Assembly (NCBI RefSeq): GCF_019966595.1
Contig: NZ_JAINFJ010000001.1
Location: 744,001 to 808,000 of the forward strand
Length of the DNA: 64,000 nucleotides
Direction: 5' to 3'
Source of the DNA: Oricola indica
GTDB taxonomy: Bacteria; Pseudomonadota; Alphaproteobacteria; Rhizobiales; Rhizobiaceae
In this document: one piece after another, positions 24,376-39,768 of the stretch
Layout: every line of letters begins with the position of its first letter
Position numbering within the stretch: position 1 is the first letter of the stretch
The notes under the pieces: model-generated
Told to the model about the DNA's origin: nothing
Seen by the model: the letters and a program-made list of their open reading frames with translations, nothing else
The model's database searches: none
Translations under genes and position numbers: made by a program

Positions 24376-24379
<4 letters not shown>
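23612..24379 (-). CDS. ABC transporter permease (nitrate/sulfonate/thiamine-precursor type)
   Basis: The 255-residue protein has six transmembrane segments and the BPD-type permease EAA loop (EYRDILRSLGASRYTIFTKIALP, about residues 140-165). It forms the membrane channel of an importer with the ATPase and binding protein upstream; its start overlaps the ATPase stop by 4 bases. The family covers nitrate, taurine, sulfonates and pyrimidine precursors of thiamine, and sequence does not settle which. Confidence 0.92.
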
Positions 24380-25167
<788 letters not shown>

Positions 25168-26904: not shown

Positions 26905-27273
26905 CGTCAGTCAGCGGCGCTCGAACGAAAGATGGTGCGCAGCCCGTTCGACGGCGTGGTCACGGAAAGGCTGATGGCCGAAGGCGAACTCTACAACGAA
27001 CAGGAGCCGATCCTGACGCTCGCCAGCATCGATCCGCTCGATATCGAGACTTTCCTGCCGTCCGAGCAACTGACCGAGGTGGAGCCGGGCGAAACCGTTT
27101 CGGTCCTGCTGGAAACCGGTGGCGAGGCCAGCGCCAGGGTCACCGTGATCGACCCGTTCCTCGACGGCGCCACCGGGACATTCGGTGTCCGGCTCACGCT
27201 CGACAATCCCGACGGCGCCATCCTCGCCGGCCAGCGCTGCACGGTCGAATTCGGGCCCTCCGCCGGAAATTGA
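26905..27273 (+). pseudogene. Truncated RND-efflux membrane fusion protein (C-terminal remnant)
   Basis: The frame from just after a TGA at 26902 to the stop at 27273 encodes the C-terminal third of an HlyD/AcrA-type periplasmic adaptor. The end of the hairpin (SAALERKMVRSPFDGVV) is followed by the beta-barrel segment (PLDIETFLPSEQLTEVEPGE) and a normal C-terminus. The signal peptide, lipoyl half and most of the coiled coil are missing. The ATG at 26932 falls inside the conserved RSPFDG region, so it is not a natural start. No RND pump or outer-membrane partner lies nearby. It marks a deletion or rearrangement next to the tRNA. Confidence 0.8.
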
Positions 27274-27514: not shown

Positions 27515-29785
27515 ATGATCATCGACAGGAAAACCTCTCCATTTCTGATCTACAGCGAGGATCCGCTGATCCTCGCCCTGCAGAAGATATCGGAGAACAA
27601 GAGCGGCTTCGTCGTCGCCGTTTCGGAGAAGGGCCGCGCGATTGGCGTGCTGACCGACGGCGACGTGCGGCGCTGGCTGTCCAGCGCTGACAAGCTCGAC
27701 CTGAACGTCCCCGTCGGCCTCGTCGCCAACCGGGAATTCGTCACCCTGCCCGTCACGGCAAGCCCGGAGGAGATCGCGGCCAGGCTGGACAGTCGCGTCC
27801 GCGTCATTCCGCTGACCGACGAGGCCGGACACCTGATCGCGATCGCCCGGCAGGGACAGGACCAGTTCCGCATCGGCGCGCGGAAGATCGGCGATGCCGA
27901 ACCCGCCTATATCATCGCCGAGATCGGCAACAATCATAATGGCGACGTCGAACTGGCGAAGCGGCTGGTCGATATCGCGGTGAGCGCGGGCGCGGATTGC
28001 GCCAAGTTCCAGATGCGCGACATGGAGGCCCTCTACGGCTCGGGCCGCGGCACGGCGGGCGCCTCGCACGATCTGGGCGCGCAATACACGCTCGACCTGC
28101 TCGCGAAATACAATCTGAGCCGTGACGACATGTTCCGGCTCTTCGATCACTGCCGCGCGGTCGGCATCGAACCGCTCTGCACGCCCTGGGACGAGCCGAG
28201 CCTGGACGCGCTGGAGAGCTACGGGCTCGAAGGCTACAAGGTCGCCTCGGCCGACCTCACCAATCACGGCTTCCTGACTGTGCTGGCCGAAACCGGAAAG
28301 CCGCTGATCTGCTCGACCGGCATGGCGACCGAGATCGAGATCGTCGACACCGTCCGGCTGCTCCGTGCAAACAGCGCGTCCTATGCGCTGCTGCACTGCA
28401 ATTCGACCTACCCCACGCCCTACAAGGATGTGAATCTGCGATATATTCCCCGGCTGGCGAAGATCGGCGACTGCACGGTCGGCTATTCCGGGCACGAAAG
28501 GGGATGGATCGTTCCGCTCGCCGCGATCGCCTTCGGCGCGCGCATCATCGAGAAACACATCTCGGTCGACCGCTCCATGGAAGGCAACGATCACAAGGTG
28601 TCGCTCCTGCCCGACGAACTCGCCGAGATGGTTCGCTCCATACGGGCGATCGAGGAAGCAACCGGCCAGCCCGCCGAGCGCGAACTGACCCAGGGCGAAA
28701 TGATGAACCGCGAGGTCCTGGCGAAATCGCTCTATGCGAGCAGCGCCATCGAGGCCGGGACCGTCATCACCGACGACCTGATCGAGGTTCGAAGCCCCGG
28801 CCAGGGCCTACAGCCCAACTACCGCGCCGACCTGATCGGCCGCAGGGCGAACCGGGCGATTGCGCCGGGAACGCCGTTCTTCAGGACCGACCTCGAGGAC
28901 GTCGATGTTTCCGCCCGCGATTTCCATTTCGACAGGCCTTGGGGCATCCCCGTCCGCTGGCACGATTACCGGGAAATCCTTGAAGTCTCGAACCCCGACC
29001 TTCTCGAGTACCACCTGTCCTACAAGGACATGGAGGAATCGTTGGAAAACTGGTTCGACGACGTTCTCGACATCGACCTGACGGTCCACGCACCGGAACT
29101 GTTCTCCGGTGACCATATCCTCGACCTCGCCTCCGAGGACGAGGCGTATCGGTCCCGCTCGATCCGTGAACTTCAGCGTGTGTGCGACCTCACCCGCAAG
29201 CTGGCGGCCTGGCACGGGAAATCCGGCACTCCGCTCATCATCGCCAATCTTGGCGGCTTCACCACGAGCGGCTTTCGCCCCCTGTCCGAGCGCACCCGCC
29301 TTTACGCGCTCATCGAGGAAAGCCTCGCCCAGATCGACGCCACCGGCGTCGAGATCATCCCGCAGACCATGCCGCCCTTTCCCTGGCATTTCGGCGGACA
29401 GAGCCATCACAATCTGTTCGTCGATCCGGATGAGATCGCCGACTTCTGCGCGCGCACCGGCATGCGGGTCTGCTTCGACATCTCTCACTCGCAACTCGCC
29501 TGCAACCATTTCAAATGGTCGATGATCGACTTCACCCGTAAGGTCGGTCCGCATACGGCGCATCTCCACATCGCCGATGCGAAGGGGATCGACGGCGAAG
29601 GTCTGCAGGTGGGCGACGGCACGATGGATCTGAAGCCCATTTGCGACGTGCTCAATGAAACCTGCGCCGAGGCGAGTTTCGTCCCCGAGGTCTGGCAGGG
29701 CCACAAGAACAATGGCGCCGGCTTCTGGTACGCACTGAACAAGCTTGAGCCATGGCTCGGCCAATCGGCGGATTCCGGGTCGTGA
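27515..29785 (+). CDS. CBS / NeuB-type nonulosonate synthase / SAF / TIM-barrel fusion protein
   Basis: The 756-residue protein joins four parts. Residues about 10-115 form a CBS pair (GVLTDGDVRRWL). Residues 120-375 are an N-acetylneuraminate-synthase domain with IAEIGNNHNGD, CAKFQMRD, LICSTGMAT and IEKHISVDRS. Residues 385-455 are a SAF (antifreeze-like) domain typical of sialic-acid synthases. Residues 465-750 are a xylose-isomerase/AP-endonuclease-2-like TIM barrel with metal-ligand motifs such as CFDISHSQLACN and HLHIADAKG. The NeuB part would condense phosphoenolpyruvate with an amino-hexose to a nine-carbon sugar; the barrel could act as an epimerase or isomerase. A cytidylyltransferase follows 2 bases later. 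Confidence 0.88.
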   Translation: MIIDRKTSPFLIYSEDPLILALQKISENKSGFVVAVSEKGRAIGVLTDGDVRRWLSSADKLDLNVPVGLVANREFVTLPVTASPEEIAARLDSRVRVIPLTDEAGHLIAIARQGQDQFRIGARKIGDAEPAYIIAEIGNNHNGDVELAKRLVDIAVSAGADCAKFQMRDMEALYGSGRGTAGASHDLGAQYTLDLLAKYNLSRDDMFRLFDHCRAVGIEPLCTPWDEPSLDALESYGLEGYKVASADLTNHGFLTVLAETGKPLICSTGMATEIEIVDTVRLLRANSASYALLHCNSTYPTPYKDVNLRYIPRLAKIGDCTVGYSGHERGWIVPLAAIAFGARIIEKHISVDRSMEGNDHKVSLLPDELAEMVRSIRAIEEATGQPAERELTQGEMMNREVLAKSLYASSAIEAGTVITDDLIEVRSPGQGLQPNYRADLIGRRANRAIAPGTPFFRTDLEDVDVSARDFHFDRPWGIPVRWHDYREILEVSNPDLLEYHLSYKDMEESLENWFDDVLDIDLTVHAPELFSGDHILDLASEDEAYRSRSIRELQRVCDLTRKLAAWHGKSGTPLIIANLGGFTTSGFRPLSERTRLYALIEESLAQIDATGVEIIPQTMPPFPWHFGGQSHHNLFVDPDEIADFCARTGMRVCFDISHSQLACNHFKWSMIDFTRKVGPHTAHLHIADAKGIDGEGLQVGDGTMDLKPICDVLNETCAEASFVPEVWQGHKNNGAGFWYALNKLEPWLGQSADSGS

Positions 29786-29787
29786 CC

Positions 29788-30564
29788 ATGCGCATCGTCC
29801 CCGATCTTTGCTGGGGGCTCACTCTCGGCCGCGGAGGATCGAGGGGCCTGCCCCGCAAGAATGTCCGGGAACTGGGCGGCCATCCGCTGATCGCCTGGGC
29901 CGTTGCGGTCGGCAAGCTCGCCGGCGGCGTTGACCGCGTTCTCTGCTCCACCGACGATGCCGAAATCGCACGGGCCGCCGCCGACGCGGGAGCCGACGTG
30001 CCGTTTCGCCGCCCTTCCAGCGCGGCGGGCAGCGCCGCCACGGATATGGACGTTTTCTCTCACCTCATCGAATGGCATGCCGAACGCGGCGCCGATCTGC
30101 CCGAATTCTTCGTGCAATTGCGCCCGACGACACCGTTCCGCGAGCCGGAATGGATCGACCGCGCGATTGCCCGGATGAAGGCGGACAGAAGCATCACATG
30201 CATGCGCTCCGTCACGCCGACGCCGATAACGCCCTACAAGATGTGGCGCAGCGCCGATGGTGACCGGCTCATGCCCGCGATGGAACTCCCGGGCGTAAAC
30301 GAGGCCTATAATCTTCCGCGCCAGTCACTGCCGGAAATCCTCTGGCATACCGGCCAGATCGACGTCATTCGCACCGAGACGCTTCTCGGCGGATCGATGA
30401 CCGGCGCGAACATTCACGCGCTGCACCTGCCGTTGGAAACGGCGATCGATATCGACGGACCGGACGACTTCCACCTTGCCGAGATCAAGTTCCGCGAAAC
30501 GATGCCGGCAGCCCTCGGGGCGTATCTCGCAACGGCCGAGCCGGGACGAAACGATTTCGCATAA
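29788..30564 (+). CDS. CMP-nonulosonate-type cytidylyltransferase
   Basis: The 258-residue protein has the nucleotidyltransferase start LGRGGSRGLPRKNVRELGGHPLIAW and resembles NeuA-type acylneuraminate cytidylyltransferases, which activate sialic-acid-like sugars as CMP derivatives. Supporting blocks are VLCSTDDAEIA, QLRPTTPFR and AIDIDGPDDF near residue 225. It begins at the ATG at 29788, or at a GTG at 29782 that overlaps the stop of the NeuB fusion; either way the two are co-translated. The exact sugar cannot be read from sequence. Confidence 0.87.
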   Translation: MRIVPDLCWGLTLGRGGSRGLPRKNVRELGGHPLIAWAVAVGKLAGGVDRVLCSTDDAEIARAAADAGADVPFRRPSSAAGSAATDMDVFSHLIEWHAERGADLPEFFVQLRPTTPFREPEWIDRAIARMKADRSITCMRSVTPTPITPYKMWRSADGDRLMPAMELPGVNEAYNLPRQSLPEILWHTGQIDVIRTETLLGGSMTGANIHALHLPLETAIDIDGPDDFHLAEIKFRETMPAALGAYLATAEPGRNDFA

Positions 30565-30580
30565 TCGCCGGAGAATGCGC

Positions 30581-31996
30581 TCAGGCGGACGCACCGATAC
30601 CCTTCAGGAGTGTCTCGACCCGGAGCCGCGGCATACCGAAGGCGAAGATATCCTCCAGGCGCTCGAATTCGTCCGGAACATATGACAGTTCCTCGACCTT
30701 GACCGCGAAGTCCAAAACCCGATCCACCGGTTCGCTGTGTGCGAGGAAGTCTTCCACGCCCGAAGCCGCAAGCGCATCGAACGCCACCGAATTGGGCGCA
30801 TTGGCATAGGCGGCGGTCCCGAAATGGATCGCCTTGCGGCCGCGAAGAAGCGCCTCGAACCCTGCCGTGCCCGTGATGCACGCCGTGCAGTCGGTCATCT
30901 CCTGCAATTCGCGTGAGGGAACGTCCAGCCCGACCAGTTGCACTTTCGGGATGCTCGCCAGCCACTTGTAATAATCTTTCGGCCTGAAATTCGTGTTCGC
31001 CCGCGTCCCGGCCGAGAACATGCTCGTGTGTTCCTTGACATAGATCGCCGAGCCTTCGGGAAGCGTGTCGGAAAGCGCCTTGACCGCGTGAATCTGGTTC
31101 ACATAGCGGCCGCCAAGCGGCATCGTGGTCAGTTCGGGCTGATAGTGAAGCGGGAAAAAAACCGAAACCCCGTTGACCGGAGCGGGATCCAGCGGCGTGC
31201 AATAGCGTTTGTAGCGGCTCTTCAGCAGCCGCTTGAAAACGAAACCGCTCTGCGAAATATCCGCAATCTTCTTCAGCTTTTCCGGCCTGAACGGATGCCC
31301 CTCGGTTCTTAGTCTTCTCAGCTTTTTCCTGAAGTTGGGCCGGTATTTCAGATAGCCCGGTTTGTAGGTCCGGGTCCCGTGGATGACCTTGTCCACTTCG
31401 GCCTGCGACGCGGTGGACAACGTCCCTTCGCCGCCCGCCATGTGCAGCGGAATGATGGCCGGTGCGGGCAAGCCATCCTCGCCGATGATCGGACCGTCAT
31501 AGCGCGTTGCGGCGATCCGGGCATGGAAGAACGCGCCGTTCCGGGTCAGCATGATCGGGATGTTCTCGTGCAACGCGATCCGGTACAGCATGTACTCCAG
31601 ACCGGATTCGGGTTGGTTCACGAACATGACGATATCCGGCCGGTGCTTCGCGATGATCTGCTCCGCGCGCGAGAAATCGTGAAGCGCCCGCGTCATCGTC
31701 GCGATGCTTCCCCCTTCATACGGGCCGTACCGGTCGAAAACCGGCAGATAGGTCGCGGGATCCCCGGCGATCTCGGTGAACCGCTTCAGATCGAGTTTTT
31801 CGTCCCAGGTTATGTCGTATCTGTAGGATGCCCAGGCGTAGTGTTCGGCCTGTTCGAACGTCTTTCGGATAGTGCCCCGCTGAGAGAGATGCGACGCAAT
31901 GGCGGGCACTGCGATGTCATATCCATCCAGAGCGCCTCGAAGACGGACGAGCTCTTCGGAAGGCAACATGGCAAAGCTCAGAATTGCATTCTTCAT
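30581..31996 (-). CDS. Capsule polysaccharide biosynthesis-like protein
   Basis: The 471-residue protein lacks membrane segments. It resembles the Capsule_synth (KpsC/KpsS-like) family: the C-terminal ITGTAGFEALLRGRKAIHFG stretch and the YVKEHTSMF motif before it are typical of these GT-B-type Kdo transferases. It faces the NeuB/cytidylyltransferase pair, separated by only 16 bases from the latter's stop, and probably works on the same surface glycan. An in-frame ATG at 32032 would add 12 residues; the ATG at 31996 has GGAAG about 9 bases upstream and is preferred. Confidence 0.7.
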   Translation of the reverse strand: MKNAILSFAMLPSEELVRLRGALDGYDIAVPAIASHLSQRGTIRKTFEQAEHYAWASYRYDITWDEKLDLKRFTEIAGDPATYLPVFDRYGPYEGGSIATMTRALHDFSRAEQIIAKHRPDIVMFVNQPESGLEYMLYRIALHENIPIMLTRNGAFFHARIAATRYDGPIIGEDGLPAPAIIPLHMAGGEGTLSTASQAEVDKVIHGTRTYKPGYLKYRPNFRKKLRRLRTEGHPFRPEKLKKIADISQSGFVFKRLLKSRYKRYCTPLDPAPVNGVSVFFPLHYQPELTTMPLGGRYVNQIHAVKALSDTLPEGSAIYVKEHTSMFSAGTRANTNFRPKDYYKWLASIPKVQLVGLDVPSRELQEMTDCTACITGTAGFEALLRGRKAIHFGTAAYANAPNSVAFDALAASGVEDFLAHSEPVDRVLDFAVKVEELSYVPDEFERLEDIFAFGMPRLRVETLLKGIGASA

Positions 31997-32372
31997 TGAT
32001 TGTTGCTTCCAACTGGTAGCGAGCCGACTCATCGGCGAGCGGCCTCATTTCACGGGTCAGGAACGCTTGTTAGTGCATAGCCGGCATCGGGTCCATCGGG
32101 GCGATGGAAATCGGGAACCGGCAGGCGGCCTTCGCCAAATGCCCATGCGCCAAGCCGCCTCCGGCCAACCCGCCGGAACGTCATGAGTGAAGGAAACCTG
32201 CTTCGCCGGGCGAGCTCAGCCAGGCACTGATCGTCACGTTCACGGCCTTGTCGCACAACCCTCGAACACAAGATGATTGCAAAGCGTATGCTGCGCTCGA
32301 ATTCTGTGATCATCCGCGCCCCGGATCGCAACTTGAGAAACACAATCCCCTCCACCTGATTTCCACTCTTTA
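31997..32372. other. Gap between the glycan genes and the pentose regulon
   Basis: About 375 bases hold no gene I recognise. A minus-strand open frame from 32313 to 32050 (87 codons, starting MITEFERS) could code for a small arginine-rich protein, but it shows no motif and lacks a good ribosome-binding site. The stretch is somewhat richer in AT than the genes around it near 32280-32410 and probably holds the upstream end of a promoter region. Confidence 0.4.
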
Positions 32373-32420: not shown

Positions 32421-32445
32421 TCGGTGATCGAAGGGAGTGAGGCAG

Positions 32446-33375
32446 GTGGACAATCGCAAATCGACACAGGACGTCGCGCTGGGCATACGCCGTCGCGTTT
32501 TCGAGCATTCGATGCGCAACAATGGTGGCTATCTGAGCCAGGCCTGCTCGGCCGCCGAACAGCTCGCCTTTCTCTATAACGAGGCGCTCAATCTCGGCGA
32601 CCCGACACTGCCGGCGATCCCGAAACCCTTCGCGGGCGTTCCGCGCGCGGGCAATGACGAATATGTCACCGGCGCCGGCTACAACGGTCCTTTCGAGCCG
32701 CAATACGACCGCCTGTTCATCGCGCCCGCCCATTATGCGCTCGTCGCCTACGCCACCCTGATCGAGACCGGGCGCATGGCGCCGGAGGGCCTCGAGATGT
32801 TCAACCGGGACGGCTCCTCCGTCGAGATGATCGGCGCGGAACATTCGCCGGGCATGGAAGTCCACAACGGCACGCTCGGCATCGGCCTGTCGACCGGAGC
32901 CGGCCTCGCCTGGGGCCGCAAGCGCCGCGGCGAAACCGGAAAGGTCTGCGTGTTCATGTCGGACGGCGAAGTCCAGGAAGGCCAGACTTGGGAAGCCGTG
33001 CAGGCCGCCGCCCACCACGGCATCGACAATCTCTGGGCCCTGATGGACGTCAACGACCAGCAATGCGACGGCGCGATGGACAGCGTGATGGATGTGCGCG
33101 ACATCGCCGCCAAGTTCCGGACCTTCGGCGCGGTCTGTGTCGAGGTGGATGCCCACGATCTCGACGCACTGCGCCAGGCCAAGGCCGAGCCGCATGAGGG
33201 CCAGCCCCTGATCATATTGGCGCGGTCTTCGCCCACACACGGCATGTCCTTCCTGCAGCGACGCTTCCCCCGTCTTCATTACGTCCGCTTCAAGACGACC
33301 GAGGAACGCGACGAAATGAATGCGGCGATCGCCGAAGAACTCGGCATCCAGCCGGTCGAACTGGAGGCGCACTGA
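32446..33375 (+). CDS. Transketolase-like protein, N-terminal (thiamine-pyrophosphate) subunit
   Basis: The 309-residue protein corresponds to the pyrophosphate-binding half of transketolase. It shows APAHYALVAYATL with the active-site-type His (about residue 85), EHSPGMEVHNGTLGIGL and the TPP motif MSDGEVQEGQTWEA ending in DVNDQQ. The catalytic half is a separate gene one base downstream, as in split archaeal-type and apulose-phosphate transketolases. The GTG at 32446 is preferred, with AGGGAG about 7 bases upstream; a GTG at 32437 is closer to that site than is usual. Its neighbours suggest it acts on a sugar phosphate made by the RuBisCO-like protein. Confidence 0.9.
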   Translation: MDNRKSTQDVALGIRRRVFEHSMRNNGGYLSQACSAAEQLAFLYNEALNLGDPTLPAIPKPFAGVPRAGNDEYVTGAGYNGPFEPQYDRLFIAPAHYALVAYATLIETGRMAPEGLEMFNRDGSSVEMIGAEHSPGMEVHNGTLGIGLSTGAGLAWGRKRRGETGKVCVFMSDGEVQEGQTWEAVQAAAHHGIDNLWALMDVNDQQCDGAMDSVMDVRDIAAKFRTFGAVCVEVDAHDLDALRQAKAEPHEGQPLIILARSSPTHGMSFLQRRFPRLHYVRFKTTEERDEMNAAIAEELGIQPVELEAH

Positions 33376-33376
33376 C

Positions 33377-34381
33377 ATGGTCGAGATGGTCAACCGCCCC
33401 TATGCCGGTGCCTTCGAGAAATTCGCCGTCGCCAATCCGGATGTGCTCTGCCTGTCGGCCGACCTGACATCCTCCTGCGAGATCGACGGGTTCCGCGACC
33501 GCCATCCGGAGCAGTTCCTGTCGCTCGGCATGGCGGAACAGAACATGATGAGCTTTGCCGGCGGCCTCGGCCTCGCCGGCTTCCGGCCTTTCCTTCACTC
33601 CTTCGGCGTCTTCCTCTACCGGCGCCCTTATGACCAGCTCATGGCGTCGGTCGCCTATCCGCGCCGCAAGGTCCGCCTCATGGGCTTCCTGCCCGGCATC
33701 ACCACGCCCGGCGGCATGACCCATCAGGCGATCGAGGATGTCGCGGTCATGCGTTCGATTCCGAACATGACGATCCTGGAAACCGGTGACGCGACAGAGG
33801 TCGAGAGCATTTGCGAGGCCGCCGATTCCATCGACGGACCGGTCTATTGCCGCGTCCTGCGGGGCTCCGTGCCGCGCCTTTTCGACACGCCGATCGAGGT
33901 CGGCCGGATGCGCGAACTGGCCATGGGCGAAGACGTCCTCGTCGTGACCTCCGGCATCGCGACCGAAGAGGCGCTGCGTGCACGCGACGCCCTGTCCGGC
34001 GCGGGCGTCTCGATCCGCCATCTGCACATCAACACTATAAAGCCGTTCGATCCGCAGCCGCTGCTCGATCACATCGCCTCGGTGAAGAAGGGTGTCGTGG
34101 TCCTTGAGAACCACGTCATCGACGGCGGCGTCGGTTCGCTCGTCGCCGAGATCATGGCGGAAAACGCCGTCGGAAAGCCGCTCGTGCGCCTCGGCCTGCG
34201 CGACACCTACGCCCATGGCGGTTCGCGAGCCTACCTGATGAAGCATTACGGGCTCGACGCCGCCGCGCTCGTTGCCGGTATCGAGAAGATCATCGGCGCC
34301 AAGACCGGCATTACCGAAGACGCGCTGGCCGTCGCCCGCGTCGATGCGGTCCACTCCGCCGTCAAGGCCGAGGCGCTCTGA
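33377..34381 (+). CDS. Transketolase-like protein, C-terminal (pyrimidine-binding) subunit
   Basis: The 334-residue protein is the second half of the split transketolase. LGMAEQNMMSFAGGLGLAG near residue 45 holds the glutamate that activates thiamine pyrophosphate, PGITTPGGMTHQAIEDVAVMR follows near 108, and a transketolase C-terminal domain begins about residue 195. It starts one base after the N-terminal subunit's stop, with GGAGG about 9 bases upstream, and ends 4 bases before the RuBisCO-like gene. The three are clearly one operon. Confidence 0.92.
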   Translation: MVEMVNRPYAGAFEKFAVANPDVLCLSADLTSSCEIDGFRDRHPEQFLSLGMAEQNMMSFAGGLGLAGFRPFLHSFGVFLYRRPYDQLMASVAYPRRKVRLMGFLPGITTPGGMTHQAIEDVAVMRSIPNMTILETGDATEVESICEAADSIDGPVYCRVLRGSVPRLFDTPIEVGRMRELAMGEDVLVVTSGIATEEALRARDALSGAGVSIRHLHINTIKPFDPQPLLDHIASVKKGVVVLENHVIDGGVGSLVAEIMAENAVGKPLVRLGLRDTYAHGGSRAYLMKHYGLDAAALVAGIEKIIGAKTGITEDALAVARVDAVHSAVKAEAL

Positions 34382-34385
34382 CGCC

Positions 34386-35501
34386 ATGGAGCGCTTCACC
34401 GTCAGCTACCGGATCTTCGCCGGGTCCGAGAAGGAGGCCCGCGAACGCGCCGAAGGCATCGCCCTCGAACAGACCGTCGAAATCCCGGGCGACATCGTGC
34501 CCGAGGGTTATATCCGCGAGGAGATCGTCGGCCGGATCGAGCGCATCGAGGACGCCGGGCCCGGCATATACGACACGGCGATATCCTATAGCCCGGACAG
34601 CGCGGGGAATGATATCGTCCAATTGCTCAACGTGATCTTCGGCAATTCGTCGATCCAGAAGGGCATCAAGGTCACCGGTTTTGCCCCCGGCGCGACGATC
34701 GCCGAACGGTTTTCCGGACCGCGCTTCGGCATCGAGGGCGTCCGCCGCCTCGCCAACCGGCCGAAGGGCGGCCTGATCTCGCCGGTCATCAAGCCGATGG
34801 GCTCGACCGCCGACGAACTCGCCGAAATCGCCTATCGATGCGCGTTCGGCGGCGCCGATATCGTCAAGGACGACCACGGCCTCGCCAACCAGGCGATGGC
34901 GCCGTTTCGCGAGCGCGTCGAGAAGGTCTCCGCCGCCGTCGCGAAAGCCAACAACGAGACCGGAGGCTCGTCACTCTATTTCCCGAACCTCGCGGGTCCC
35001 GGCAGCGACATTGTCGCCAATGCGCGCTTCGCGAAACAATGCGGCGCCGGTGGCGTGCTGCTGATGCCGGGCCTTCACGGCTTCGGCGCGGTTCATGAAC
35101 TGGCAGGCGACGCGGATTTCGGCCTGCCCGTCATGACCCATCCGAGCTTCCTCGGCCCCTATGTGTTGTCGGAAGACACTGGCTTCACCCACGCCATGAT
35201 GTTCGGCGTCCTGCAGCGCCTCGCCGGCTCCGATATCTCGGTCTTCCCCAATGTCGGCGGCCGTTTCGGCTTTTCCGCCGACGAATGCCGCTCGATCGCG
35301 GAAGCCTGCCGCGCGCCGGACGGCATCGGCAAGCCGATGTTCCCGAGCCCGGGCGGCGGCATGAGCGTCGAACGGGCCGGCGACATGGTGTCCATGTATG
35401 GCGAAGACGTCGTCTACCTGCTTGGCGGGAGTCTTCTCCGCTACGGCGACCGTATCGCCGAGGGCGTACGCGCCATGCGCGAAGCCGTGGACGCGGCCTA
35501 G
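34386..35501 (+). CDS. RuBisCO-like protein (form IV)
   Basis: The 371-residue protein has the RuBisCO large-chain fold. Positions matching catalytic residues of true RuBisCO are partly kept: Lys in GLISPVIKP (K175), the carbamate-type Lys and following Asp in GGADIVKDDHG (K201, D203). The residue matching E204 is His, and the loop-6 GKLEG lysine is not seen, so it should not fix CO2. Form IV proteins catalyse enolisation or isomerisation in methionine salvage (2,3-diketo-5-methylthiopentyl-1-P enolase, 5-methylthioribulose-1-P isomerase) or act on apionate intermediates. Here its operon partners are split transketolase subunits. Its stop codon overlaps that of the convergent mutarotase gene as CTAG. 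Confidence 0.93.
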   Translation: MERFTVSYRIFAGSEKEARERAEGIALEQTVEIPGDIVPEGYIREEIVGRIERIEDAGPGIYDTAISYSPDSAGNDIVQLLNVIFGNSSIQKGIKVTGFAPGATIAERFSGPRFGIEGVRRLANRPKGGLISPVIKPMGSTADELAEIAYRCAFGGADIVKDDHGLANQAMAPFRERVEKVSAAVAKANNETGGSSLYFPNLAGPGSDIVANARFAKQCGAGGVLLMPGLHGFGAVHELAGDADFGLPVMTHPSFLGPYVLSEDTGFTHAMMFGVLQRLAGSDISVFPNVGGRFGFSADECRSIAEACRAPDGIGKPMFPSPGGGMSVERAGDMVSMYGEDVVYLLGGSLLRYGDRIAEGVRAMREAVDAA

Positions 35502-35941
35502 AAAATCACGCCCTTGCGCAGCACGAAACAGCCAAACGGGCGCGCCTCGGTCGTGGCGACGACGGCATAGGCCGTGCGCGCATGCTGGTAGAAATCCTGC
35601 CGCTCGATTCCCTTGACCGCCGAGCCCTCCGGCTTCTCGCTGTCGATGACCGCCAGCGCCTCGCGATGCACGTCGCCAAGCTCGTCGGGTGAATTGTCGA
35701 TCTCCATGCGCAGCGCGCAATAATCGGTAAAGCCGTCCAGCGGCATCAGCCCGGTGATCAGCCGTATCGCCTCCGGCGCATCGATGGCGGGCAACCGCAC
35801 CACCGCGCCATGGACGGTATGCACCGCCGTGGACTCGGCCGGGTAGTTCGCATCGACGATGACGATTTCGTCGCCATGTCCCATCCGCATCAGGCAATCC
35901 ATGAGATCGGGCGTGATGCGCGGATCGATGGTTTTCAGCAT
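35498..35941 (-). CDS. RbsD/FucU-family sugar mutarotase
   Basis: The 147-residue protein matches the RbsD/FucU family: MRMGHGDEIVIVDANYPAE near residue 18 holds the conserved His and Asp, and the C-terminal AYAVVATTEARPFGCFVLRKGV is the FucU-type end. These enzymes interconvert anomers of imported reducing sugars such as fucose and ribose. It follows the binding-protein gene of the sugar ABC operon on the same strand, so it probably prepares the imported sugar for the anomer-specific kinase encoded at 39824. GAAGGAGG lies 7 bases before the ATG. Confidence 0.92.
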   Translation of the reverse strand: MLKTIDPRITPDLMDCLMRMGHGDEIVIVDANYPAESTAVHTVHGAVVRLPAIDAPEAIRLITGLMPLDGFTDYCALRMEIDNSPDELGDVHREALAVIDSEKPEGSAVKGIERQDFYQHARTAYAVVATTEARPFGCFVLRKGVIF

Positions 35942-35961
35942 GTGTCTCGCCTCCTTCGTGC

Positions 35962-35990
35962 AAAGGGCCGCACGATGGCGGCCCCTTTTC
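35962..35990 (+). terminator. GC-rich hairpin between mutarotase and binding-protein genes
   Basis: An inverted repeat (GGGCCGC at 35965-35971 with GCGGCCC at 35978-35984, extended by flanking A and T bases) has a T-rich tail on the plus strand (TTTTCTTTTC). Read on the plus strand it looks like an intrinsic terminator for read-through from the transketolase-RLP operon. Read on the minus strand it lacks a T-run and could instead protect the 3' end of the binding-protein message before the mutarotase gene. Confidence 0.55.
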
Positions 35991-36016
35991 TTTTCGTCCT
36001 CGGTGCCTTTGCCGGC

Positions 36017-37063
36017 TCAGCGCGCCGGCAGCGGCATCCAGTCGGTCATGGCGACATCCGCATGGGCGAACTGCGGCATCTTGGCCGAAAGATCCTGCAT
36101 GTTCTTGATGTCGTTCTCGTTGAGGAAATCCTGCGTGATCAGCGTCGGCGGAACCACGACCTGTGCGCCCGGATCGCCGCCCGTCAGCATGATGGCGAGC
36201 GCGCGCACGGAAACCTCGCCCACGACGGCGGGGTTCGTCGCCACGGTCGCGGCCCAGGCGCTGTCCGGCTCGCGCATCGCGGAGATGTCGGCGGTCGAGA
36301 CGTCTGCCGAATAGATTTTCACGTCCTGCGAGAGACCCGCCTCGTCGACGGCGATCTTCACGCCCTTGGCGAACTCGTCATAAGGCGCGAAAAACACCGA
36401 GATGCCCGGATTGGCCTGCAGCACGGAGCGAGCCTGGTTGGCGTTGGAGTTGGCGATCGGGTTGTCCAGGGTCCCCATCTGGGCGACTTCGACGATACCC
36501 GGATTGGCTTCCTTCACTTCTTCCCAGGCGACGTGGCGACGGTCGAGCGGCGCGATACCCGGAACATAGACATAGCCGGCTTCCCACTCGGTGCCGTTGT
36601 CCTTGATGGCCTGCTCCAGCGCCAGCTTGCCGAGCAGGTAGTCCGACTGCTCGATCTGCGGGATCGCCTCGTTCTCGACATTCACGTCGAAGGCGACGAC
36701 CTTGATGCCCGCATCGACGGCGCGCTGAGCCGCTTCCTTCATGGATTCGGTCAGGCCGTGCTGGATGACGATGCCGTCAACGCCGAGCGCGATTGCCTGG
36801 TCGACCATGTCGGCCTGGAGTGCTGCGTCCTGGCGGCTGTCGAAGACGCGCAGATCGACACCCAGCGCCTCGGCCTGGGACTCGACGCCCGACAGATAAG
36901 CCTGGAAGAAGTCGCCGGTCGAAAGATAACGCACCAGCGCGATCTTCACCTCGCCCGGATTGTCGAGCGGCGCGGGCATGTCCGCCGCGCGGACCGAAAG
37001 CCCGGTCGCGGCGACAGTCAGCCCGGCCATCATGGCCATGGCGGTTCTGCGGATGATTTTCAT
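36017..37063 (-). CDS. Sugar ABC transporter substrate-binding protein (RbsB-like)
   Basis: The 348-residue protein has a Sec signal peptide (KIIRRTAMAMMAGLTVAATGLSVRA, cleavage near residue 27) and a type 1 periplasmic-binding fold of the ribose/galactose group, with VDGIVIQHGLTESM and VVAFDVNVEN in the expected places. It captures a sugar in the periplasm for the permease and ATPase upstream in the operon. The ATG at 37063 has GGGAGG 7 bases before it; the frame is open further up without similarity. The ligand is unknown but the gene neighbourhood points to a pentose or 5-substituted pentose. Confidence 0.93.
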   Translation of the reverse strand: MKIIRRTAMAMMAGLTVAATGLSVRAADMPAPLDNPGEVKIALVRYLSTGDFFQAYLSGVESQAEALGVDLRVFDSRQDAALQADMVDQAIALGVDGIVIQHGLTESMKEAAQRAVDAGIKVVAFDVNVENEAIPQIEQSDYLLGKLALEQAIKDNGTEWEAGYVYVPGIAPLDRRHVAWEEVKEANPGIVEVAQMGTLDNPIANSNANQARSVLQANPGISVFFAPYDEFAKGVKIAVDEAGLSQDVKIYSADVSTADISAMREPDSAWAATVATNPAVVGEVSVRALAIMLTGGDPGAQVVVPPTLITQDFLNENDIKNMQDLSAKMPQFAHADVAMTDWMPLPAR

Positions 37064-37095
37064 GTCATTTCCTCCCGTTGATATTTGACTGCGTG

Positions 37096-38175
37096 TTAGT
37101 GCCCTCCGGCTTTCCGGCCGGACAGCGAAAAGGTGAAGACCAGGGCGACCACGAGCACCGCGCCCTTGACGAAATCCTGCGTGTAATAAGGCGCATTCAT
37201 CATGGTCAGGCCCTGCAGCAGGATCCCGACGAACAGCGCGCCCATCGCGGTTCCGAAGGCGTTCGGCTTGGCCGCGCCCAGCACCGCGAAACCGATCAGC
37301 GCCGCCGCCACCGCGTCCAGCAGCAGGTTCGTGCCCGACGCGATGTCGCCGCGGCCGAGCCGCGCGGCAAGCAGCATGCCGCCCACCGAGGCGAGCACGC
37401 CGGAAAACATGTAGGCGACGATCTTGTAGGCGTTGACATTGGTGCCCGTCAGGCTCGCCGCGCGTTCGTTCGAGCCGATCGCATACATCAGTCGCCCATG
37501 CCGGGTCAGTTCGAGGAAGCCCCACACGAGGACCCCGATGACCAGCAGGAACACGACCGAGATCGGCAGGAGATTTTCCAGCACGAGATCGAAGCGGTGC
37601 CGGCCCATCTGCAGGAAGAAGGGCGAGAAGGTGCCGTTGGCCGTCGAGCCGTCCGGCAGCGTCATGCCGGTCGCGATGGAGCGGCCTTCGGTCGGAATGC
37701 GCTGCAACCCGACCAGCAGGAACATCATGCCGAGCGTCGCCAGCAGGTCCGGCACCTTCGTCTTGACGATCAGCACGCCGTTGATGAAGCCGATGACCGC
37801 GCCCATGACGAGACAGGCGACGATGGCGACAAAGGCCGACTGTTCGAGCACCACCATCACATAGGCCGACAGCATCATCGACGAGGTGGCGACCGAACCG
37901 ATGGACAGGTCGAACCCGCCGACGACCAGCGTAAACGTCACGCCAAGCGCGAGGATGCCGGTGATCGCCACCGACTGGAAGATGAAGACCGCGCTGCGCG
38001 GGCTCGAGAAGCCGTCGGCGGCAAGGCTGAAGAAGATCACCAGCCCGACCAGCAGACCGATGAAGCCGAAACGGATGGCGAAATCGATGGCGTTCCTCGA
38101 CTGTGCGCCGTCCTTGCGGGCCGGCTTGCCCTCCTGCGCCACGGTTGCGTCCTTCTCGTTCAATGTCATGGTCAT
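37096..38175 (-). CDS. Sugar ABC transporter permease (RbsC-like)
   Basis: The 359-residue protein has eight to ten transmembrane segments and the carbohydrate-uptake-2 permease signature GVTFTLVVGGFDLSIGSVA near residue 80. It has a hydrophilic N-terminal stretch of about 35 residues. The start at 38175 overlaps the ATPase stop as ATGA. It forms the channel of the importer with the ATPase and RbsB-like protein; a single permease would act as a homodimer. Confidence 0.93.
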   Translation of the reverse strand: MTMTLNEKDATVAQEGKPARKDGAQSRNAIDFAIRFGFIGLLVGLVIFFSLAADGFSSPRSAVFIFQSVAITGILALGVTFTLVVGGFDLSIGSVATSSMMLSAYVMVVLEQSAFVAIVACLVMGAVIGFINGVLIVKTKVPDLLATLGMMFLLVGLQRIPTEGRSIATGMTLPDGSTANGTFSPFFLQMGRHRFDLVLENLLPISVVFLLVIGVLVWGFLELTRHGRLMYAIGSNERAASLTGTNVNAYKIVAYMFSGVLASVGGMLLAARLGRGDIASGTNLLLDAVAAALIGFAVLGAAKPNAFGTAMGALFVGILLQGLTMMNAPYYTQDFVKGAVLVVALVFTFSLSGRKAGGH

Positions 38176-39692
38176 GCGGCCTGCACAGTCTGGTTTGCGG
38201 CCGCGAAACCGGCGACCGCGGTCAGGATGTCGTTCGGGTTGACGTTCTCGTTGCGGAACTCCGCCACGACGGCGTGTTCGGAGAACACGATGATGCGGTC
38301 GGCGATTTCCAGAGCCTCGTCCAACTCGGCCACCATCACCAGCGTCGCGCGATTGCCCGCCGTCTCTCGGATCTTGTGGCCGATGTCGCGCCGGGCGCGA
38401 ATGTCGACGCCCTGAAACGGTTCGTCGAGCACCAGCAGCCGGCATTGCTGCGCGAGCCAGCGCGCCAGCATCACCTTCTGCTGGTTGCCGCCGGAAAGCG
38501 TCGAGATGTCGTCGCGCTCGCTCTGGCAGACGATCGACAGCGCGTCGATCATATCCCGCGCCTTCGCCCGCTCCGCGCCGCGATTGACGAAGGACAGCCC
38601 GGCATAGCGGCGCAGGAAAGGCACCGTCATGTTGCGGGTGATGTCGAAGTCGCGGATGACCGCGTTGTTGGCGCGATCCTTCGGCGACATGAATACGCCC
38701 CGCGCGACCGCCTCGCCCGGCGATTTCGGCCGATACGCCTGCCCGTCGAGGCGAATTGACCCGGCATGGACCGGATGCAGGCCGAAAAGCGCCTGCGCCA
38801 GCGCCGTCTTGCCGCTGCCGAGCAGCCCGGTGACCACGACGATCTCGTTTTCGCGCAGCGTCAGCGAGAAACTCTTCGCCGTCGGGATAAGCCGGATATC
38901 GCTCAGTTCGGCAACGGCCTTTCCTTGCTCGGGGACGACGATGCCGACATCGGTCATGCGATGCCCCAGCATCGCGTTCACCGCGCCTTCATAGTCCAGG
39001 TTCTCGCCCTCGAACACGCCGGAGATCTCGCCGTCGCGCATCGAGACGATCCGGTCCGCGATGCGGCGGATGTCGGACATGCGGTGCGAGATGTAGAGCA
39101 CGGCCACGCCCTCGGCGCGCATCCGCTCGATATAGCTGAACAGCCTTTCCGCCTCCGAGGCGGAGAGCGACGAGGTCGGCTCGTCGAGGATCAGAAGCTT
39201 GGGATCATGCGACAGCGCGCGCGCGATGGCGATCAACTGCCGGTCCGCGATGCTGTAGTCGGAAACCGGTCGGCGCACATTGACCGGCAGGTCCATGCGC
39301 CGCGCAATGTCCTCCGCCGCCTTGAACAGTTTCGACCGTTTCAGCAGGAAACCGTAGGAATTCTCGGCCAGCCGGTCGATCATGAGATTGGAGGCGACAT
39401 CGAGGTCGGGGATCACGCCGTCATTGATGTTCTGATGCACTGTGACGATGCCGGCGCGGATCGCATCGGCAGGTGTCTCCGGGCGGAATTCCGAACCGCT
39501 CAGCCGGATCGTCCCGCTGTCCTTGGAATGCACGCCGCTGAGAATCTTGACGAGGGTCGACTTGCCGGCGCCGTTCGCGCCCATGAGCACGGTCACGGTT
39601 CCTGCCGGCAGATCGAGCGTGATATCTTTCAGGACGCGGTTGTCCCCAAAGGCTTTCTCGACCCTGTCGATACGGCATGCGGCTTCTTGCAT
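38172..39692 (-). CDS. Sugar ABC transporter ATP-binding protein (RbsA-like, double cassette)
   Basis: The 506-residue protein has two ATPase cassettes, typical of the ribose/xylose/galactose importers. The first has GANGAGKST, a degenerate signature (SDYSIADRQLIAIARAL) and LLILDEPTSSL; the second has the variant Walker A GLLGSGKTA, LSGGNQQKVMLA and LLVLDEPFQGVD. The ATG at 39692 has GGGAGG 6 bases upstream, so it is preferred over an earlier in-frame start. It is the first gene of the importer operon and is transcribed divergently from the MtnK-type kinase. Confidence 0.95.
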   Translation of the reverse strand: MQEAACRIDRVEKAFGDNRVLKDITLDLPAGTVTVLMGANGAGKSTLVKILSGVHSKDSGTIRLSGSEFRPETPADAIRAGIVTVHQNINDGVIPDLDVASNLMIDRLAENSYGFLLKRSKLFKAAEDIARRMDLPVNVRRPVSDYSIADRQLIAIARALSHDPKLLILDEPTSSLSASEAERLFSYIERMRAEGVAVLYISHRMSDIRRIADRIVSMRDGEISGVFEGENLDYEGAVNAMLGHRMTDVGIVVPEQGKAVAELSDIRLIPTAKSFSLTLRENEIVVVTGLLGSGKTALAQALFGLHPVHAGSIRLDGQAYRPKSPGEAVARGVFMSPKDRANNAVIRDFDITRNMTVPFLRRYAGLSFVNRGAERAKARDMIDALSIVCQSERDDISTLSGGNQQKVMLARWLAQQCRLLVLDEPFQGVDIRARRDIGHKIRETAGNRATLVMVAELDEALEIADRIIVFSEHAVVAEFRNENVNPNDILTAVAGFAAANQTVQAA

Positions 39693-39723
39693 TGTCTCCT
39701 CCCGAGACGATGAAAACAGGCTA

Positions 39724-39768
39724 CATGACAAAAGTCAATGGATATTGACAACTGCATGAATTGACTTC
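39724..39768. promoter_or_regulatory. Operator region B between the ABC operon and the kinase-isomerase operon
   Basis: The 131-base divergent region holds TGACAAAAGTCAA (39726-39738), itself a palindrome, then TTGACAACTG (39745-39754) and TTGACT (39761-39766). On the minus strand the first reads TTGACTTTTGTCA, one base from the TGACATTTGTCA core at operator C. Its place between two divergent operons of the pathway suggests a site for the SorC-type regulator encoded at 42200. Confidence 0.6.

Follow-up and report, generated by a model that had tools for sequence, protein, structure and literature searches.

The closest described system to the locus studied here, a four-domain synthase gene in a 64,000-nucleotide stretch of the Oricola indica genome (contig NZ_JAINFJ010000001.1, positions 744,001 to 808,000; hereafter the window), is found in the KL1 and KL2 capsule loci of Serratia marcescens. 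In the available sections of Anderson et al. 2022 (PMC9000132), the variable region of these loci starts with neuA and neuB, and NeuB bears an extra COG1082 sugar isomerase/epimerase domain. Both polysaccharides contained 3-deoxy-D-glycero-D-galacto-nonulosonic acid (KDN), identified against a KDN standard, with a ratio of N-acetylneuraminic acid (Neu5Ac) to KDN of about 1:20. Deletion of neuB in the KL1 strain UMH9 lowered the thiobarbituric sialic acid signal fourfold (a "loss" in the abstract) and abolished the capsule, and the mutant was complemented. The sections available of a follow-up again give KDN as the main sialic acid and describe a KL2 neuB mutant as capsule-null (PMC12077157). 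Purified proteins of Bacteroides thetaiotaomicron, named in PMC9000132, likewise synthesize KDN, and the system proposed here would resemble that one in making KDN with bacterial enzymes. According to an excerpt of PMC8053191, nonulosonate routes all branch from uridine diphosphate N-acetylglucosamine (UDP-GlcNAc), KDN excepted.

The meningococcal NeuB/SiaC (1xuu, 4ipi, 4ipj) shares the NeuB-SAF fold and most catalytic residues with the Oricola protein but lacks both the CBS pair and the barrel and uses N-acetylmannosamine (ManNAc) by means of Arg314. A literature search for NeuB joined to CBS, a barrel, or an isomerase returned nothing that by its title concerned such a fusion. For this barely characterized kind of NeuB, glimpsed in Serratia with its extra isomerase/epimerase domain, we describe a wide spread, a sequence signature, and two attached domains of putative function. 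We find that the Oricola gene belongs to a family of fused synthases whose acceptor site is altered and which occur independently of NeuC and PseG. The protein is likely to be a KDN-type nonulosonate synthase, using mannose and phosphoenolpyruvate (PEP), with a neighbor that makes the cytidine monophosphate (CMP) sugar CMP-KDN.

Architecture of the fused synthase

The synthase gene and its parts are as follows (window coordinates).

27515..29785, + strand: fused CBS-NeuB-SAF-barrel synthase, 756 aa (open reading frame call, Pfam, homolog alignment)
27536..27682, + strand: first CBS repeat, residues 8-56, motif TDGD.RRW (Pfam CBS, 39.5 bits)
27965..28669, + strand: NeuB domain (PF03102), Pfam span residues 151-385 (263.5 bits)
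28727..28897, + strand: SAF (antifreeze-like) domain (PF08666), residues 405-461 (41.9 bits)
28793..28795, + strand: Ser427 codon, at the position of meningococcal NeuB Arg314 (alignment to the meningococcal enzyme)
29015..29704, + strand: xylose-isomerase-like TIM barrel, AP_endonuc_2, Pfam span residues 501-730, conserved over about 466-748 (78.7 bits)
29363..29365, + strand: codon of the invariant Gln617, a Glu in MJ1311 and endonuclease IV (alignments)

The initial annotation described a CBS-NeuB-SAF-barrel gene followed by a cytidylyltransferase gene and a KpsC/S-like gene on the other strand. Pfam bears this out, with the domains in the order CBS, NeuB, SAF, AP_endonuc_2 and all four above cut-off. 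With both NeuB and SAF over cut-off, the protein is a member of the NeuB sialic acid synthase superfamily, and NeuB is present once in the 5.09-Mb genome. Only the first CBS repeat exceeds the Pfam cut-off; the second is backed by an alignment to 4o9k and by the fold model, in which the pair extends to about residue 112. The full-length model has a predicted local distance difference test score (pLDDT) of 90.1 and a predicted template modeling score (pTM) of 0.68, and given this pTM the relative placement of the domains is tentative.

The architecture is not peculiar to this genome: a search for related loci shows it recurring near full length in 80 of them. These are the best 80, the number retained, of 209 related stretches in other genomes, and all cover the fused protein nearly in full at 51-68% identity. 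Together with a plasmid copy from Ensifer canadensis (53%) and the window protein, they form an alignment of 82 rows, every one of which retains the CBS region. Recurrence of the four-domain architecture is far above chance.

The architecture of the Serratia type is present in the window, namely a NeuB with a C-terminal isomerase/epimerase-like barrel and an adjoining cytidylyltransferase; we take COG1082 and AP_endonuc_2 to cover the same barrels. The Serratia proteamaculans copy in our set (L030, 10001-12241) is 2241 bp long. This is the length stated for the S. marcescens neuB reading frame in PMC9000132, where KDN was found in the capsule. Upstream of the L030 synthase lie GalU-like frames, a Wzc-type gene (by cluster representative), and a cytidylyltransferase, the gene order given in that report. 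Across the genus, the fused gene occurs in 5 of 30 Serratia genomes at 94-100% identity, that of L030 included. A CBS domain, present in the window protein, has no mention for the S. marcescens NeuB in the available sections of PMC9000132.

The acceptor site of NeuB

Residues E136 (just before the Pfam span), K164, Q166, K242, S245, S267, S325, H327, E346, H348, and D359 are invariant in all 82 fused rows. The same is true of the equivalents of the meningococcal catalytic and ligand-site residues E25, Q55, T110, K129, Y186, S213, H215, E234, and H236, in a mapping of ligand-site residues that excludes Asn74 and Phe288; the roles of H236 and of the metal in the meningococcal site are assumed here. 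The position of meningococcal Asn184 is Ser297 in 81 of the 82 rows, the one departure from an otherwise unvarying set of PEP-site and metal-site residues.

The acceptor end of the site differs. In the available sections of PMC6795526, Arg314 of the meningococcal enzyme positions the N-acetyl group of ManNAc, a contact lost in the Ala mutant, and both Arg314 and Phe112 are named as ligand-contacting residues. R314A and R314K appear in the titles of the structures 4ipi and 4ipj, respectively. At the Arg314 position the fused rows have Ser (80), Cys (one, L072), or Ala (one, L077) and never Arg, whereas 18 of 20 unfused NeuBs have Arg, one has Lys, and one has Ser. These controls are what remained of 23 aligned sequences (nine from the same loci and 14 from relatives) once L033 and L097, neither of which extends to this column, and the divergent L096, with Met at it, had been dropped. 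The Phe112 position is Trp in 80 of 82 fused rows and Phe in 17 of 20 unfused NeuBs; overall, nine positions separate the two groups at the thresholds set in our comparison script. Meningococcal Arg314, Phe112, and Asn184 thus correspond to Ser427, Trp225, and Ser297 of the window protein. Judged from these replacements, the ManNAc-type N-acetyl grip appears to be absent from the fused synthase, and because this contact is lost, the site would fit an acceptor without a 2-acetamido group.

NeuC and PseG in carrier genomes

We surveyed 46 genomes, comprising that of O. indica and 45 of the 80 carriers picked for long contigs and variety. NeuC is over cut-off in eight of them, PseG in 13, and either in 19. 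An unfused NeuB above 200 bits, a count that leaves out weaker NeuB-like matches (up to 143 bits), is present in 20 genomes; 19 of them, all but G073, also carry NeuC or PseG. Neither enzyme is found in any of the 26 genomes without a strong unfused NeuB, and a genome-wide profile search of O. indica returned no NeuC and no PseG match. The conventional NeuB travels with a sugar-releasing enzyme, and the fused NeuB is independent of NeuC and PseG. Because Arg314 is replaced and because NeuC and PseG follow the unfused NeuB only, the acceptor of the fused synthase is probably not derived from a UDP-N-acetylhexosamine.

These results support a CMP-nonulosonate module, as initially annotated. The further suggestion of an unusual sugar proves right in a specific way, as the evidence points to KDN, whose route does not branch from UDP-GlcNAc (PMC8053191, in excerpt). 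Because the KDN route does not start there, the dehydratase, aminotransferase, and acetyltransferase of conventional pathways, which are missing from the window, would be dispensable. The rest of the genome yielded no conventional pathway either, with a single NeuB and neither NeuC nor PseG, although no genome-wide search was made for the dehydratase, aminotransferase, and acetyltransferase families.

The barrel domain

The barrel is conserved like an enzyme, with 36 of 283 positions invariant across the 82 rows, and is not the inactive appendage that had been considered at the outset. Its model has a pLDDT of 95.5. The top fold match is MJ1311 (3wqo, titled D-tagatose 3-epimerase-like; Z 24.5, root-mean-square deviation 2.6, 241 aligned residues, 20% identity), followed by ketose 3-epimerases and by endonuclease IV, with Z scores of 21-24. 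The window barrel shares its fold with these ketose 3-epimerase-like barrels but differs from MJ1311 in having Gln rather than Glu at 617 and in being joined to a PEP-condensing synthase.

In 690 genomes, of which the first six or eight candidates each were scored, all 27 barrel matches (at least five of them already in the alignment) sit in frames of at least 617 aa, and none of the 27 is a standalone barrel whose neighbors might hint at a substrate. The cyanobacterial draw yielded a very divergent relative (94 bits; G750:C4:144590-145330), whose frame has 617 aa.

In a single comparison, the barrel profile aligned locally to five endonuclease IV proteins (five of nine matches over cut-off) with a probability of 71.6% and E 3.5e-5. 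On the residue numbering and functions that we assume for endonuclease IV, Asp655, His658, His685, and His525 of the barrel occupy metal-ligand positions, and His109 and Glu145 of endonuclease IV are Asn578 and Gln617. Glu261 aligns to Gln728, but Glu725, which follows the last strand, is an equally likely counterpart. Of the 11 AP_endonuc_2 paralogs in the same genome, the nine tried against the barrel profile showed no useful similarity. These residues suggest that the domain is an active metal barrel forming a subtype of its own.

The CBS pair

In the Protein Data Bank, the N-terminal domain finds its best sequence match in 4o9k, the CBS pair of an arabinose 5-phosphate isomerase (residues 21-110, E 3.2e-5). 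Arabinose 5-phosphate isomerase belongs to the parallel pathway of 3-deoxy-D-manno-octulosonic acid (Kdo). Because this best match comes from a Kdo-pathway isomerase, a CMP-sugar end product may be considered an equally good candidate ligand of the CBS pair as the ATP or AMP initially suggested, which would make CMP-KDN a candidate effector. The 4o9k structure is probably a complex with CMP-Kdo, and its CBS pair is joined to a SIS isomerase, unlike that of the window protein.

Three genomes of the window's order (L105, L106, and L107) have a shorter fused frame of 646-652 aa, L106 and L107 being judged by frame length. The protein of L105 (1495-3417, - strand, 641 aa) has the order NeuB-SAF-barrel without a CBS pair. 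Its frame is flanked by a cytidylyltransferase and a short-chain dehydrogenase/reductase (SDR), both recognized by eye.

Proposed mechanism and alternatives

We propose that the NeuB-SAF core condenses PEP with a hexose lacking a 2-acetamido group, most likely D-mannose, to yield KDN, which the adjoining cytidylyltransferase would convert to CMP-KDN. The CMP-sugar would then serve a glycosyltransferase of surface glycans, for which the KpsC/S-like protein is a possible candidate. The barrel's probable part is to provide the acceptor or set it free, for instance by isomerizing a ketose to mannose or by freeing mannose from a phosphorylated form, and it would stand in the place of the NeuC and PseG of other pathways. 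As for the N-terminal CBS pair, it probably acts as a sensor, either of feedback or of energy state. As to the barrel, we tentatively favor acceptor supply by isomerization over a phosphatase or a product-modifying activity, with somewhat less than even confidence.

A bolder version, which we regard as rather doubtful, would make the protein a self-supplying, feedback-controlled KDN factory and, with its neighbor, a portable two-gene KDN cassette across many phyla. Here the barrel would turn a common ketose or sugar phosphate into mannose through a Gln-containing metal site unlike those of the compared epimerases and pass the mannose to the NeuB core, and the CBS pair would sense the CMP-KDN produced by the neighboring enzyme.

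Among the alternatives, the synthase could act on a phosphorylated sugar, mannose 6-phosphate giving KDN-9-phosphate as in Bacteroides, with the barrel as the phosphatase that acts before CMP activation. The B. thetaiotaomicron pathway takes the KDN-9-phosphate route with a separate phosphatase and unfused enzymes, in which it differs from the window protein. Consistent with a phosphatase role, endonuclease IV, to which the barrel profile can be aligned, has a metal phosphoesterase fold, and the Asp and three His residues fall at ligand positions. Furthermore, no phosphatase family appears among 23 neighbor clusters (26 clusters occur in at least five of 81 loci, but three of them consist of the synthase; each of the others was scanned through a single representative, and two lack a Pfam match). 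However, because Asn578 and Gln617 replace His109 and Glu145, the full three-metal site is not kept, and the nearest fold is ketose-3-epimerase-like, albeit by a small gap (Z 24.5 versus 23.1 for endonuclease IV). We consider this alternative unlikely.

It is quite unlikely that the protein is a decorated Neu5Ac, legionaminic, or pseudaminic acid synthase with precursor genes elsewhere in the genome. The fused NeuB does score 306 bits against the NCBIfam model NeuB_NnaB (TIGR03569) and 235.9 bits against PseI (TIGR03586), the cytidylyltransferase is closest to PseF, and the Serratia capsule contained a little Neu5Ac (PMC9000132, available sections). Both synthase scores nevertheless fall below the curated cut-offs of 399.65 and 340.25, Arg314 is replaced, and NeuC and PseG are below cut-off in the O. 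indica genome and in 26 of the 45 other carriers. A barrel acting on the product, so that the final sugar is an epimerized or altered KDN, would suit a strongly conserved domain with a ketose epimerase fold that is joined in every match found, but is very unlikely given that the Serratia capsules yielded KDN itself, matched to a standard (PMC9000132, same sections).

Several observations weigh against the KDN-synthase proposal or parts of it. We assume two catalytic, metal-binding Glu residues to be defining for ketose 3-epimerases. Gln617 is found in 82 of 82 rows where MJ1311 has Glu, which argues against an ordinary two-Glu epimerase; the initial idea that the barrel isomerizes the precursor is accordingly tentative, the invariant Gln617 having replaced the epimerase Glu. 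The CBS control would not be essential, since the fused protein of L105 lacks the pair. At position 225, the fused rows L054 and L058 carry Phe instead of Trp. An unfused NeuB from the window's own genus (L088, 1087-2568; the downstream gene is an SDR by eye) also has Ser at the Arg314 position, so that this Ser alone is not diagnostic; the L088 protein appears from its sequence to be another subtype. No cytidylyltransferase lies within 8 kb in the available DNA of 13 of the 81 loci, several of which end at a contig edge.

The comparison with Serratia has limits as well. What would tie the fused family to the UMH9 NeuB is agreement in length, described domains, order of genes, and genus, and the wording of the 2241-bp statement may include 9 bp upstream (PMC9000132). 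In the available sections of the same report, the neuB mutants were assayed by the thiobarbituric method, and loss of KDN was seen for deletion of the whole variable region only. The window protein falls in another deep clade than L030, at 54% identity, and so its acceptor could differ from that of Serratia. Finally, one machinery can serve both KDN and Neu5Ac, using mannose or ManNAc (PMC8053191, in excerpt), and because the machinery can be shared, KDN does not depend on the fused architecture.

If the bolder version is true, a two-gene KDN cassette would account for KDN in environmental biofilms whose makers are hidden by annotation. In the available sections of PMC10483923, KDN ranked second in abundance among the nonulosonic acids of three of four granular sludge samples and was low in the dairy one, and Neu5Ac and KDN synthases were indistinguishable owing to gene annotation. 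The fused barrel, Ser427, and Trp225 together offer a sequence signature for the candidate KDN type, with carriers that include cyanobacteria, Nitrosomonas, and Zoogloea. The protein also provides a concrete system for studying how such an enzyme could furnish its own acceptor and be controlled by the product it leads to.

Distribution and genomic context of the family

Rows of the tree bear 12 NCBI phylum labels, with five rows unlabeled, and the window protein falls in a starred set of seven rows, the other six of which are alphaproteobacterial. The protein of an Actinomycetota bin (L033) is identical over the tree columns to that of Sphingomonas corticis (L034), and the L033 contig is probably a binning error. 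No full-length copy of the fused protein was found in 40 related genomes. In an even draw of the window's phylum, the barrel occurs in five of 398 genomes (that of the window counted). For the phylum to which one cyanobacterial carrier belongs the figure is 22 of 292, a count that takes in this carrier and three more from the carrier set. A near-match search with the Serratia fused-gene DNA, run without a distant search, found no near match in E. coli. Because the distribution of the fused type is patchy, horizontal transfer is suggested. We rejected a plasmid route, as the barrel is in one of 72,556 plasmid records at E 1e-10.

Of 81 loci, 56 have a cytidylyltransferase no more than 300 bp from the synthase, and another 12 have one at a distance of up to 4 kb. 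The 23 neighbor clusters include export, chain-length, glycosyl- and sugar-transferase, epimerase, dehydrogenase, and methyl-, amino-, and hexapeptide-transferase functions, as well as a second NeuB, an MptE-like protein, and flagellin. The module seems to serve capsule, O-antigen, or flagellin systems depending on the host. A ManC neighbor was considered as a hint at GDP-mannose and dropped, its cluster being present in too few loci (eight of 81). In Nitrosomonas-type loci (L045, L050, L053, L059, L065, and L066), a divergent trio of SDR, GFO/IDH oxidoreductase, and cytidylyltransferase faces the synthase, which is followed by a gene of up to 471 aa without a Pfam match.

Neighboring genes in the window

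Two genes follow the synthase.

29752..30564, + strand: CMP-sugar cytidylyltransferase (CTP_transf_3, 53.5 bits)
30581..32032, - strand: KpsC/KpsS-like protein, convergent to the synthase module (Capsule_synth, 31 bits, cut-off 20)

The cytidylyltransferase frame overlaps the synthase stop by 34 bases; from the sequence, an alternative ATG at 29788 directly follows the stop. Its closest NCBIfam model is PseF, at 103.9 bits and under the cut-off of 205.7. For the KpsC/S-like gene, the identity initially assigned holds at 31 bits, but the boundary given, 31996, marks an internal ATG of a frame that extends to 32032. The match, the only one to Capsule_synth in the genome, spans just positions 184-267 of the 310-position profile, and KpsC structures gave no significant match to the protein (E 0.63). 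The KpsC/S-like protein is a candidate glycosyltransferase using the CMP-sugar. Among the homologous loci the gene has a single match, in L049 (36%).

Beyond it, the stretch 32437-39731 encodes a split transketolase (an N part, then a pyrimidine-binding plus C part), a RuBisCO-like protein, and a FucU/RbsD protein and ends in a periplasmic sugar-binding protein and an ABC ATPase; it looks like a separate sugar catabolic cluster. We discarded the transketolase pair and the RuBisCO-like, FucU, and sugar-binding genes as precursor makers, as none matched above 80 bits across 81 homologous loci. The ABC ATPases at 24376-25167 and 38172-39731 have ATPase matches of 26-35% identity in L008, L011, L022, L047, and L050, which we take as generic. 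Upstream of the synthase, an RND/HlyD adaptor fragment at 26932-27273 covers positions 137-244 of the 322-position RND adaptor model and, with an in-frame stop about ten codons upstream, looks like a remnant.

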